DNA of 64,000 bases from Halorussus caseinilyticus. GTDB lineage: Archaea > Halobacteriota > Halobacteria > Halobacteriales > Haladaptataceae. Made by a program: the position numbers and the translations under genes. This document shows positions 9,968-49,691 of this stretch, one piece after another (within the stretch, counting starts at the first letter, position 1; every line of letters begins with the position of its first letter). The notes beneath the pieces are model-generated. The model was not told the origin of the DNA. It did no database searches and saw only the letters and a list, made by a program, of their open reading frames with translations. Where the stretch lies: assembly GCF_029338395.1 (NCBI RefSeq), contig NZ_CP119809.1, forward strand, positions 1,550,001-1,614,000, read 5' to 3'.

Positions 9968-10087
9968 CCCGCCGAATCAGTCCCGTCGGTGTCGCAAGTC
10001 CCCGTACGAATCGGACGGGCCACCAGCGACCGCCGCCTCGAAACGGCCACAAGACGCTACACGAATCCCGTCGTACCGTCGCTGGCC

Positions 10088-10300
10088 ATGACGGCAGTAA
10101 AAATCATCAAGGTCCTCGGCACCTCCGAGGAGGGGTGGGAGCAGGCCGCGCAGGAAGCGGTGGACCAAGCCAGCAAGACCATCGACGACATCCACGGCGT
10201 CGAGGTCGAGGACTGGACCGCCGACGTAGAGAACGGCCAGATACAGGAGTACAAGACCACCGTCGAAGTCGCGTTCCCGGTCCACGAACAGCAGGGGTGA
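10088..10300 (+). CDS. Dodecin family flavin-binding protein
   Basis: A 70-aa protein matching the dodecin family of small dodecameric flavoproteins that store or buffer riboflavin and lumichrome. The GTSEEGWEQAAQEAVDQASKT segment matches the family helix, and Trp-containing VEDWTADVENG gives the flavin-stacking strand. Halobacterium dodecin is close in size (68 aa). The ATG at 10088 gives the expected N-terminus MTAVKIIKVLGTS. Monocistronic. Confidence 0.93.
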   Translation: MTAVKIIKVLGTSEEGWEQAAQEAVDQASKTIDDIHGVEVEDWTADVENGQIQEYKTTVEVAFPVHEQQG

Positions 10301-10401
10301 CGTAGCGCGACCGAGTAGGACCGAGCGACGCCAGCGCGACCGAGTAACGGCCGCTCTTTTCGCTCCCGAAAACGTACCACCCGCGAACCGCCACGTCCGT
10401 T

Positions 10402-10723
10402 ATGGACAAGCGTCTGATAGCTCGGTGGGGGTACGGTATTCGGTCCTCGCCGCCGGATTCACGGTCGGCGTGCCCTACGCCACGTTTCGGACCGGACTCG
10501 TTCCGCTGGTACTCGCGTGGGTCGGCGTCGCGCTACTCGTGCGGTCGGTGATGCGCGGGAGCGCCACCGACGGTCCGACCGCAGAGGGCCCCGCGGCCGC
10601 GTCGCTGGCGCTGTCGAGAGACGGCCCCAGAGAGGGCGAGGCGTCGGTCTCGCGCCCCCGCGACTCGCCTACTTCTTCTACGGCGTCGGCCTGCCGGTCG
10701 TCTCCGCGGGTCTGCTGGCGTGA
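10402..10723 (+). pseudogene. Small membrane-protein gene with two apparent frameshifts
   Basis: Three short reading frames read in order as one small protein: MDKRLIARWGYG in frame one, then VLAAGFTVGVPYATFRTG and VLAWVGVALLVRSVMRG in a second, then LAYFFYGVGLPVVSAGLLA and a stop in a third. The hydrophobic segments would give two or three membrane helices. A GGGGG run near 10427-10431 could be the first slip point. This is either a genuine pseudogene or sequencing error. It is convergent with the GNAT gene. Confidence 0.65.
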
Positions 10724-46576: not shown

Positions 46577-46696
46577 CGACGGCCGCAGGCCGGGTCCGCG
46601 GGAACCGAGGGCGGCGCGCTGAGGGCCGTTCGCCGTCAGATTTCCGTCACCCGTGTGCGAAAGTTTATTAAACATACATCTTCAACTATTTGGCGA

Positions 46697-47461
46697 ATGA
46701 GTGCAGGGAGTTCGGGCTACCGCGGCGACGGCTCCGAAAGTGACCTCACAGAGTCGGACGGCTCGGCGCGGTTTCTCGACGTGCTGCGGGAGTTGAAAGC
46801 CGACGGCTGTAACCTCTTGGTCGTCGGCGACGCGCCCCGTCGCCTGTTTACGGAAGCCAGCGGCGGTCTGCTCGGCGGGACCGACGAGCCTCGATACCGC
46901 CTGCTCGCGGTCACCGACGCGAGCGCCCAGAGTGTGGTCGAGCGCCTGCCCGACCCCGAGGAGATGGCCGGAACGTTCACCGAGATGACCGAAATCATCA
47001 ATCACGCCTCGCCGCCGCGGTCGGTCGTGGACGCGGGCGGCCAGTCGGAAGCGCCATCGCTCGACGCCCTCTCCGAGCGGCGAGTCGTGGACCCGCAACT
47101 CGCGGGTCTACAGGCCGAAATCGCCGAGTCGATGGCGGCGTTCAACCGCCACGCCGGGACGCTCAGTCCCGCCCAGTTGCGCGTCGGCGTGGACTCGCTC
47201 GGTGCCCTGTTCGAACACTACGACGAGAACGTGGTCCGTCGCTGTCTGCAAGTCGTCACTGGCTACGTCCGGGACTACGACGCGATGGGCCACTACGTCC
47301 TGACCGAACCGTACGACAGCACCCGCGTCGAGCGACTCGCGGGCGAGTTCGACGCCGTCGTGGAGGTTCGGGCTGTGGACTCCGAGAAACACAACCATCA
47401 CGCCGAAGAGCGCTGGCACGTTCCGAGCCACGACCTGACGACCAACTGGCTCCCGCTTTGA
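46697..47461 (+). CDS. DUF7504-like RecA-fold protein
   Basis: A 254-aa protein. LRELKADGCNLLVVGDAPRR begins a RecA-like core, and GTLSPAQLRVGVDSLGALFE with RCLQVVTGYVRDYDAMGHYV continues it. The Walker A lysine is missing, so it likely does not bind ATP in the normal way. The pattern matches the haloarchaeal DUF7504 family as I remember it. It lies 52 bp upstream of a CHAT-like gene; cotranscription is likely. Confidence 0.82.
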   Translation: MSAGSSGYRGDGSESDLTESDGSARFLDVLRELKADGCNLLVVGDAPRRLFTEASGGLLGGTDEPRYRLLAVTDASAQSVVERLPDPEEMAGTFTEMTEIINHASPPRSVVDAGGQSEAPSLDALSERRVVDPQLAGLQAEIAESMAAFNRHAGTLSPAQLRVGVDSLGALFEHYDENVVRRCLQVVTGYVRDYDAMGHYVLTEPYDSTRVERLAGEFDAVVEVRAVDSEKHNHHAEERWHVPSHDLTTNWLPL

Positions 47462-47513
47462 GACCCCGCCTCGGTCGCCCTCCGACGATTCGACGGTAGG
47501 ACGGTCAACCAGT

Positions 47514-49661
47514 ATGCGCCCACGATTCGACCCACTCGGTGACTCGACGGGGGTAGAGATTCTCGACCCCATCGAAAGCAACCGCTACGTTCTCTACACG
47601 CCCGAAGAGGTGTCGCTGACCCCTGCCGACACCGAGGCGTTCGCCTACCCGGTGTCGGTCGCCCGTCGCATCACCACCTCGGCGGTCACGCTCCCGTACA
47701 ACGTCCCCGTCGCGGTCCGCGACGCCAGCGACGGGTCACACATCCTCGACGCCGGTCACGACGGGAGTTTCGACTTGGCCGACGACGACTATCTGCTCGA
47801 AGTGAGCGCGCCCGTCAAACTCTACGTCCGGGTCTCGTCGTCGCTGTCGGTCGAAGCGACCACCGAAGCGGTCGAGTTCGAGTTCGGCGGCCCGACCCCA
47901 ATCGAACTCGGCGCGCGGTCCTCGCACAACTCGCCCGCCGCGACAATCACCGTCTCCGACGACCCCGAGGACGCGATGGCGGCCGTCTCGACGTTCGGGT
48001 CGGCGCTGAAGACGACGGCGTGCGAGCGGTCGTGGCCGAATCTTCGGGGCCATCCGCCGCGGGTCGAACGCGGCGACGAGCTGGCGATACCCGACGACTT
48101 GGACGCGCCCGGCACGGGGGTCACGCTCCACGTCCCGGCCGACTACGAACACGTCTGTACGGTCGCGCCGCTGGCGTACTACCTCGGCGCGGACGTGGTT
48201 CCCGGCGAGACGCCGCGACTGACCGCCGGGAACGGATTCGTCCACCGCCTCGACACCGAGCGTGGCTTCGAAGACGAGGTGGTTCGAGTCCTGAGACAGG
48301 TGTTCCTCCTCGACTGCGTGACCCGGACCGAGGGGATTCACCCGATGGACACGGCCGAACGCCGCGCGGTCGAACCCGTCGTTGACCTCGACTTCGCCGA
48401 CCTGTACGGCGCACCCCTCGGCGAGCAACTCGCGGCGTACCTCTCGGTACCCCGGTCGGTGCTGGCCGACGCGATGCCGTCGTGGAGTCGCGTCACTCAC
48501 GTCCGTCCCGTCGCCGAGAGCGTCGAACTCCTCCCGTTCGTCGTCAACGACCTCTCGCTGGTCCGCGTGAAGTCCGGCGCGGAGTCGTCGCCGTCGCCCG
48601 ACGCGCGGCGCGCCCGAGAGCGCGAGGCGCTGAGTTCGTTTAAGCGCAGTCCCCGATTCGACGAGGGTCTCGACCTGCCGACAGACGCCGAGGAACGAGC
48701 GACCGGCGTGCCCGACTCCAGCGAGTACGTACCCCTGCCCGAGACAGACGCCATGGAGCGAGCGTGGGTCGGCGACGGCACGCCGGTCCACGGCGCGAAA
48801 CTCCTCGCCGAGGCGTTCGACCACGACCGGTCGGAACCCACTGACGGCGTTATCGACGTGACGGTGGTGTGCAACGACGACGGGATGCGCGAGGAGTGGG
48901 ACACCGTCTCGCAGGTGTACGGCACGCGCGAGATGATTCCGTTCGACGTGGACTGCCGGTTCGACGTTTCGACCGACGAACTCCGGACGCTGTTGGCCGA
49001 GGACCACGACCTGTTCCACTTCATCGGCCACATCGACGGCCGCGGGTTCGCCTGCCGGGACGGGATTCTGGACGCCGCAACGCTCGCGGAGACCGGCGCG
49101 ACCACCATCCTGTTGAACGCCTGTCGGTCCCACGACCAAGGAGTCTCCTTGGTTGAGGCGGGCGCGCGGGCGGCCATCGTGAGTTGGGGCGACGTGGACA
49201 ACCTCGGGGCGGTCGAGGTGGGCGAGACGTTCGCGCGCCTGCTCAACTACGGGTTCGGCGTCGGTAGTGCGCTCGAAATCGTCGAGGAGTTCACCGCCAT
49301 CGGCCGCCACTACGTCGTCGTCGGCGACCCGAGCGTGACCATCGCCCAGTGCGAGAACGGCAACCCGCTTCTGTTCGAGTTAGACTGCGACTCGATGGCG
49401 GCGCTCACTTCCGAGGAGACCGTCTCGAACACCGTCGTCAGTTACGCCACGACCAAGTTCCCAATCGGGTCGGCGGCCCAACCTCACTTCCAGAGCGACG
49501 ACGACCCCGACTTCTACGTCGTCCCCGGTCCGCTGGAGACGTTCACCAACTCGTGGGCGGAACTCGAAGCGAGTCTCAGAGACTACTCGGCACCGGTCGT
49601 CGTCGGCGAGGAACTGCTCTGGACGGACGAGTGGTTCCCCGAGGCGGACGCGAGCGAATAG
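47514..49661 (+). CDS. CHAT-like caspase-fold protease
   Basis: A 715-aa protein. Residues 1-420 are an uncharacterised beta-rich region. Residues about 440-620 carry a CHAT/caspase-like core: His506 in FHFIGHID and Cys537 in LLNACRSHDQG, with the VEAGARAAIVSWGDVD segment after. This His-Cys pair matches CHAT dyads. Such proteases act in conflict or signalling systems and are often activated by a partner. It is paired with the DUF7504-like gene just upstream. Substrate unknown. Confidence 0.78.
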   Translation: MRPRFDPLGDSTGVEILDPIESNRYVLYTPEEVSLTPADTEAFAYPVSVARRITTSAVTLPYNVPVAVRDASDGSHILDAGHDGSFDLADDDYLLEVSAPVKLYVRVSSSLSVEATTEAVEFEFGGPTPIELGARSSHNSPAATITVSDDPEDAMAAVSTFGSALKTTACERSWPNLRGHPPRVERGDELAIPDDLDAPGTGVTLHVPADYEHVCTVAPLAYYLGADVVPGETPRLTAGNGFVHRLDTERGFEDEVVRVLRQVFLLDCVTRTEGIHPMDTAERRAVEPVVDLDFADLYGAPLGEQLAAYLSVPRSVLADAMPSWSRVTHVRPVAESVELLPFVVNDLSLVRVKSGAESSPSPDARRAREREALSSFKRSPRFDEGLDLPTDAEERATGVPDSSEYVPLPETDAMERAWVGDGTPVHGAKLLAEAFDHDRSEPTDGVIDVTVVCNDDGMREEWDTVSQVYGTREMIPFDVDCRFDVSTDELRTLLAEDHDLFHFIGHIDGRGFACRDGILDAATLAETGATTILLNACRSHDQGVSLVEAGARAAIVSWGDVDNLGAVEVGETFARLLNYGFGVGSALEIVEEFTAIGRHYVVVGDPSVTIAQCENGNPLLFELDCDSMAALTSEETVSNTVVSYATTKFPIGSAAQPHFQSDDDPDFYVVPGPLETFTNSWAELEASLRDYSAPVVVGEELLWTDEWFPEADASE

Positions 49662-49691
49662 GTCGGAAGCGGAGAAAGAGCGCGGCGCGTC

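Follow-up and report, generated by a model that had tools for sequence, protein, structure and literature searches.

Polymorphic toxin-immunity systems and the Agr and ComQXP specificity groups rely on a recognition domain and a partner that diversify together by cassette exchange. In Paenibacillus, the Alo pro-peptides yield a mature C-terminal peptide of 5-10 amino acids, and more than 25 pairs exist in some species (PMC7425212). Among the haloarchaea, Haloferax volcanii displays a strong caspase-like activity, the protein(s) behind which were still to be identified (PMC3615174). Here we analyse a locus from a 64,000-nucleotide stretch of the Halorussus caseinilyticus genome (contig NZ_CP119809.1, positions 1,550,001 to 1,614,000 of the forward strand), hereafter the window, in which a first-pass annotation had described two open reading frames (ORFs) on the + strand, 52 base pairs (bp) apart, encoding a DUF7504-like protein (46697..47461) and a CHAT-type protease (47514..49661), and had suggested that they form a new archaeal protease-plus-sensor module. 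Both ORFs lie where they had been placed. The window locus is one intact member, with regulator and protease, of a haloarchaeal module whose full form comprises three genes: a CHAT/clan CD protease, a convergent DUF7503 peptide of about 44 amino acids and, optionally, a Walker-A-less KaiC-like DUF7504 protein. The C-terminal domain of the protease (residues 612-708; 49347..49637, + strand, in the window) behaves in relatives as a polymorphic cassette that changes together with the tail of the peptide.

Related loci were collected with the protease as seed, and the outside loci considered here are the best 79 of 249 stretches encoding relatives in the GTDB species set, with genes called by us by codon bias. 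At 16 of them DUF7504 lies downstream of the CHAT gene, and the 350-590 bp between the two genes hold an opposite-strand ORF of about 44 amino acids, which corresponds to Pfam DUF7503 (PF24335; E 5e-18 to 7e-12 in four of the six peptides scanned). When the 97 CHAT genes of the outside loci and of the window's own genome were scanned, a convergent ORF of this type was present at the CHAT stop in 79, the two genes overlapping at their 3' ends by 4 nucleotides (-4) in 23 pairs and standing between -4 and +5 nucleotides in most. The peptides follow the consensus MSxxxLxxYLAExP[RK]MMGVLFTxxLLLSQAGNVAA-(6-9 variable)-GP, with a hydrophobic segment, an AxA-like site, a variable tail and a near-invariant C-terminal Gly-Pro (75 of 79 peptides). 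An [AV]xA site leaving 5-14 residues is found in 64 of the 79, a weak test in so Ala-rich a region, and is suggestive of peptide export and cleavage by signal peptidase.

Several lines of evidence indicate that this ORF is a real coding gene under selection: codon changes are most frequent at third positions (835, versus 410 and 352 at the other two), the ratio of nonsynonymous to synonymous substitution rates (dN/dS) is mostly 0.1-0.4, the Gly-Pro codons use all third bases, and the majority of DUF7503 genes carry a positioned AT-rich promoter element, with a TTTAGAAAAATT-like consensus, at about -54 to -25 from the ATG (log-likelihood of 259 versus 81 +/- 6 for block-shuffled sequences). Because all third bases are used, we rejected the idea that the Gly-Pro reflects a DNA constraint of overlapping genes; a SecM-like arrest by the terminal Gly-Pro was dropped too, since a conserved Arg is missing and a gene of convergent orientation has no means of regulating CHAT in cis. 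The -54 element is not typical of the regions before CHAT/DUF7504 units (median score 4.5 versus 28.9, a single one of the 91 exceeding the threshold), and we do not claim a regulon from it, since it is AT-rich enough to match elsewhere (matches in N runs were disregarded). One genome holds a tandem pair of DUF7503 matches beside a single CHAT gene (L144, G114:C1:486534-486796).

The association holds in both directions. A reverse search of whole genomes (21 relatives and 244 genomes of the phylum) was seeded with DUF7503, and 52 of the 54 matches over the Pfam cut-off in the 21 genomes were at a CHAT 3' end, a count made by eye against the match lists and in which one placement (G011, contig C19) rests on an adjoining DUF7504 match; both exceptions belong to the window's genome. 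Across 43 haloarchaeal genomes from the same order as the window's host, CHAT and DUF7503 were both present in 34, both absent in seven, CHAT was alone in two and DUF7503 alone in none (hypergeometric p 1e-6). DUF7503 is a more constant partner of CHAT than DUF7504, and a co-diversifying one.

Along the CHAT protein, clear covariation with the peptide was observed in the C-terminal part alone, once the rest of the protein was controlled for (windowed analysis, permutation nulls), with a partial correlation of 0.48 with the N-terminal part of the peptide and of 0.18 with the tail. In 28 independent closest pairs, C-terminal and tail divergence were correlated (Spearman rho 0.78, p 1e-6; partial correlation given the core, 0.68), tail distances of single pairs being coarse since tails have only 6-9 residues. 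The ratio of C-terminal to core divergence was 0.9-1.4 in the five pairs with the same or nearly the same tail and 1.2 to 6.5 where tails differ (p 1.4e-4). For instance, the Halosimplex loci L105 and L109, whose tails differ, share 93% identity over the first 605 residues of the protease and 94% over the N-terminal part of the peptide, and 52% over the C-terminal domain. At the DNA level, the 3' end of CHAT shows a dip in identity some 300 bp long, flanked by conserved sequence, and identity rises again within the peptide gene. The number of synonymous substitutions per site (dS) in this 3' block is several-fold that of the core in the closest tail-changed pairs (2.2 against 0.25 in the core in one, 1.2 against 0.28 in another, the remainder saturated); where tails are unchanged or nearly so, it ranges from the core value to about 2.5 times that value at most. 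Such a rise in dS reflects replacement by an old allele, and not just fast evolution. These comparisons identify the C-terminal domain and the tail as segments that vary as one cassette, through cassette-like exchange.

The two segments lie within tens of nucleotides of each other and the whole exchanged tract has an elevated dS, so that the CHAT 3' end could be a recombination hotspot in which the tail and the C-terminal domain, merely adjacent, hitchhike together. We regard this as very unlikely: in exchanged pairs the amino-acid changes of the peptide cluster in the tail columns, with the AxA region and the Gly-Pro fixed, and the two-way association and the phyletic pattern would still call for a functional link.

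We propose instead, with about even confidence, a recognition module in which the protease C-terminal domain recognises the tail of its cognate peptide, with DUF7504 as an optional regulator. The hydrophobic segment of DUF7503 would act as an export or membrane segment, the tail would be the cognate ligand of the C-terminal domain, and the presence, absence or location of the tail peptide would switch the protease on or off. Convergent abutting genes would place receptor domain and ligand tail side by side, exchangeable by one recombination event, and the exchange of cassettes would generate a large number of private specificities, both inside one genome and from one genome to another. In our opinion, the odd but conserved convergent orientation is explained by a lock and a key that move together because they lie within tens of nucleotides. 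We infer that the tail physically binds the C-terminal domain and thereby controls the protease and what it cuts; the peptide may activate or inhibit it, acting extracellularly, at the membrane or within the cytosol. An extension of this module to archaeal self or kin recognition is possible, if rather doubtful: each module would export its own GP-ended peptide and a cytosolic caspase-like protease would read the cognate one with its polymorphic C-terminal domain, leading to regulated proteolysis or death, with domain and tail passed on together as a recombining cassette.

At the window locus the DUF7503 gene is absent, and 30 bp (49662..49691) are left downstream of the CHAT stop at the place expected for it. 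Syntenic orthologues share the neighbours of the window locus, including a downstream thioredoxin-fold gene, and in H. ruber (L040) the peptide is retained between CHAT and that gene. Five syntenic Halorussus-type loci (L039, L041, L042, L043 and the window) have no peptide and an intact CHAT. Synteny indicates that the window copy lost its peptide; this copy would be either an orphan receptor-protease or a protease served by the peptide of another copy. Two orphan DUF7503 genes without a nearby CHAT lie in the same genome (C1:1298405-1298515, L142, and C1:2504191-2504310, L143). The second peptide (...VAPALASGGATSGP) resembles that of L040 (...VAPVVASGGGGSQGP), and we would guess that it serves the window CHAT. 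Elsewhere, tandem CHAT pairs follow one DUF7504 gene with no micropeptide detected (L097:5716-10058 and L103:7998-12324).

An unusual precursor was observed at L080 of Haloplanus ruber, where an ORF of 188 amino acids in the convergent position (10058-10702, - strand) replaces the usual micropeptide. A 20-residue start without a hydrophobic segment is followed by 13 units [YFSV]TADGNSGGISGP, each ending in GP, and the ORF shares the -54 element with the sister locus L057, whose tail is TVAAGNGGGVAGP. Units differ from one another at a mean of 6.6 nucleotides, third positions accounting for 5.9, so that the repeat unit has apparently been kept by selection, and the tail is plausibly a functional unit by itself.

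Such a multivalent tail array would also suit a dedicated inhibitor, or immunity peptide, whose tail holds its own CHAT off, a non-cognate CHAT or the loss of the peptide releasing a toxic protease; the co-exchange of a binding domain and its partner likewise resembles polymorphic toxin-immunity pairs. We find this role quite unlikely, since the five syntenic Halorussus-type loci keep CHAT without the peptide, as would hardly be expected if the antidote were obligatory, except where a further copy provides it, and since the conserved part of the protein is the catalytic core, unlike in polymorphic toxins.

The nature of the protease was assessed from profiles and structure prediction. The 715-residue window protein (47514..49661, + strand) was matched by the Pfam CHAT model (PF12770, cut-off 24 bits) with 21.6 bits alone (E 1.7e-4) and 24.2 bits with its neighbours in frame, and matches at E <0.01 were obtained in 12 of 66 relatives. 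Its AlphaFold2 (AF2) model has a predicted local distance difference test score (pLDDT) of 89.9 and a predicted template modelling score (pTM) of 0.90, and the best solved matches in Foldseek were separase (1e-7), gingipain (3e-7), SAVED-CHAT (8e-7) and Csx29 (2e-5), which assigns the modelled protein to the caspase-haemoglobinase fold. His506 (49029..49031, + strand, motif H-x-I-G-H) and Cys537 (49122..49124, + strand, motif L-N-[AG]-C-x-S) are identical in 95 of 95 aligned homologues, none lacking either residue, as expected of the His-Cys catalytic dyad of CHAT/clan CD proteases. The first-pass annotation had called a CHAT-type protease with precisely this dyad, and alignment and predicted core structure both bear it out. 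The N-terminal half (residues 1-352; 47514..48569, + strand) is modelled as a beta-sandwich and an alpha/beta region (pLDDT 95.7); a PDB search with it yielded weak GH31-type sandwiches and no good solved relative, and a pseudo-caspase domain in this half was rejected because the fragment structure search gave it no support. There was no match in the PDB for the CHAT sequence profile or in NCBIfam and PADLOC for either window protein, and no relatives were found in viral contigs.

Of the 43 genomes sampled from the order of the window's host, 36 have the family; the window's genome (4.39 Mb) has 15 matches to the window protease. A different family of the phylum contributes distant homologues (E 5e-60 to 3e-68), found in four genomes (G056, G046, G065 and G037; L134-L137); these are solitary and methanogen-like, their surroundings are conserved and of housekeeping type, and a check for a micropeptide at these loci found none. 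In the window's own genome (G000), near-identical divergent CHAT units (L030-L033), each with a DUF7504-like ORF, CHAT and a peptide, occur twice on each of two smaller contigs (C3:12884-15096 and C3:155199-157597; C4:20909-22705 and C4:137122-139155), near a large protein starting MPNKGG or MPNKGR, with one CHAT copy per contig truncated C-terminally; these duplicates represent either a mobile unit or an assembly duplication.

The protease fold bears on another possible role of the peptide, that of a substrate or effector: CHAT, gated by DUF7504 or by stress, would cut after Pro-Arg/Lys and free a membrane-active peptide, in a gasdermin-like manner. An Arg or Lys is present just before the hydrophobic segment in 76 of the 79 peptides, and a Pro precedes that site in 77. 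On the protease side, Asp455 (Asp or Glu in 94 of 95 homologues) and Glu461 (95 of 95), both at the start of helix alpha1, lie close to the position at which gingipain, metacaspase and MALT1 have an Asp in the S1 pocket, one that binds basic P1 residues (PMC4357240). These acidic residues hint at Arg/Lys specificity, and the pocket is consistent with a basic P1 residue; separase and gingipain, the top fold matches, would fit as well. However, an Arg or Lys before a hydrophobic segment is also expected from the positive-inside rule, the L080 precursor has no such segment, the genes are convergent and form no operon, and the variable tail, the near-invariant Gly-Pro and the coupling of tail and C-terminal domain would be left unexplained. 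We judge a substrate role to be fairly unlikely; ligand and substrate roles may even coexist.

For the recognition module itself, several observations point the other way. Linkage alone could yield the covariation, both segments being adjacent, and in the downstream copies of the peptide-less tandem loci L097/L103 the C-terminal dS is likewise raised. CHAT copies with an intact dyad and no peptide (the window clade, L097, L103 and the methanogen-like loci) imply that the peptide is not an absolute requirement. The L080 precursor, with no obvious hydrophobic segment, is not Sec-export-like and counts against a purely secreted or extracellular role, and no peptide importer was seen to recur next to the loci.

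The upstream window protein (254 amino acids; 46697..47461, + strand), preceded by an AT-rich stretch that resembles a promoter (AAAGTTTATTAAACATACA; 46655..46696, + strand), belongs to Pfam DUF7504 (PF24336; E 5.9e-44). A profile built from 30 CHAT-adjacent DUF7504 proteins matched KaiC (E 7e-4) through a Walker-B-like DSL region, and the Walker A motif GxxxxGK[ST] was found in none of 73 CHAT-adjacent copies; these profile data agree with a KaiC relationship and with the initial description of a RecA-fold protein without the Walker A lysine. In 55 of the 79 outside loci (70%) a DUF7504 gene is found no more than 1 kb from CHAT, always on the same strand, a pairing beyond chance and by no means rare. 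Its position varies (upstream in 39 loci, downstream in 16), about 30% of CHAT genes have no nearby DUF7504, and DUF7504 genes also occur elsewhere in the genome without CHAT (22 DUF7504 matches in the window's genome). DUF7504 is an optional partner and likely a regulator of the protease. In two separate clades, a gene for a receiver-domain response regulator is repeatedly found in the vicinity of DUF7504/CHAT loci, in most cases 1-2 kb downstream of the protease gene (L038:5061-6723; L057, L061, L063, L069, L070, L080, L095, L096, L105, L108, L109 and L115).

The same-strand adjacency and the KaiC-like character of a protein without Walker A are what a two-gene stress or immunity module, with DUF7504 as sensor and CHAT as protease, would predict, as first proposed for this locus. 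We consider that proposal extremely improbable, given the CHAT genes without an adjoining DUF7504, the DUF7504 genes without CHAT, the lack of recurrent defence genes around the loci and of any PADLOC match; DUF7503 is more constant, and the protease and DUF7504 do not by themselves constitute the module. The novelty claimed for the locus stands in part: no published account was found in the open-access literature, but the core of the module is not this pair.

Both DUF7503 and DUF7504 are already catalogued in Pfam, with no function assigned there, and in an open-access library, with subscription papers and preprints outside its coverage, no paper names either family, and none was found to describe a link to CHAT, a co-diversification or an archaeal CHAT-micropeptide pair. 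The present results give the two families a shared genomic context and define a family of caspase-like proteases that is widespread among haloarchaea, a single genome having as many as 15 members. They also offer candidate genes for the archaeal caspase-like activity (PMC3615174): the H. volcanii genome has matches to DUF7503 and DUF7504, although that activity cuts after Asp and the pocket of the haloarchaeal CHAT hints at Arg/Lys. If the tail is indeed a ligand, Archaea would possess, in this module, a system of polymorphic peptide recognition, whose convergent abutting layout would be a simple genetic means of keeping lock and key together. The module can be tested directly in culturable haloarchaea.

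Csx29 of the type III-E Craspase, SAVED-CHAT and the CHAT proteases of gasdermin loci share with the window protease the CHAT/clan CD fold, the His-Cys dyad and a probable gating by a partner. The haloarchaeal protease differs from them in its N-terminal half, in having a convergent polymorphic micropeptide as partner and in its chromosomal housekeeping context. No large Cas-like gene that could correspond to Cas7-11 recurs within 8 kb of the 79 loci, no SAVED partner was found at haloarchaeal CHAT loci, and no gasdermin-like partner is recurrent at the 79 loci, where neighbours look housekeeping and were not scanned by profile. The analogy with type III-E CRISPR and gasdermin systems drawn in the first-pass annotation is weak, and a defence-island reading was rejected, no defence genes recurring round the loci. 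Rap-Phr and other RRNPP systems are similar in their short pro-peptide with an N-terminal hydrophobic part and a variable C-terminal peptide, encoded beside the receptor gene, with many pairs per genome. They differ in that the haloarchaeal receptor is a protease and not a tetratricopeptide repeat (TPR) protein (the window protease has no TPR match in Pfam, and its N-terminal half is a predicted beta-sandwich and alpha/beta region), in the Gly-Pro terminus, in the abutting convergent cassette and in being archaeal. Neither genes for toxin delivery nor a histidine kinase were seen to recur beside the CHAT loci, and, compared with toxin-immunity, Agr and ComQXP systems, the CHAT catalytic core is conserved, the variable domain is non-catalytic and the partner is a 44-residue peptide.

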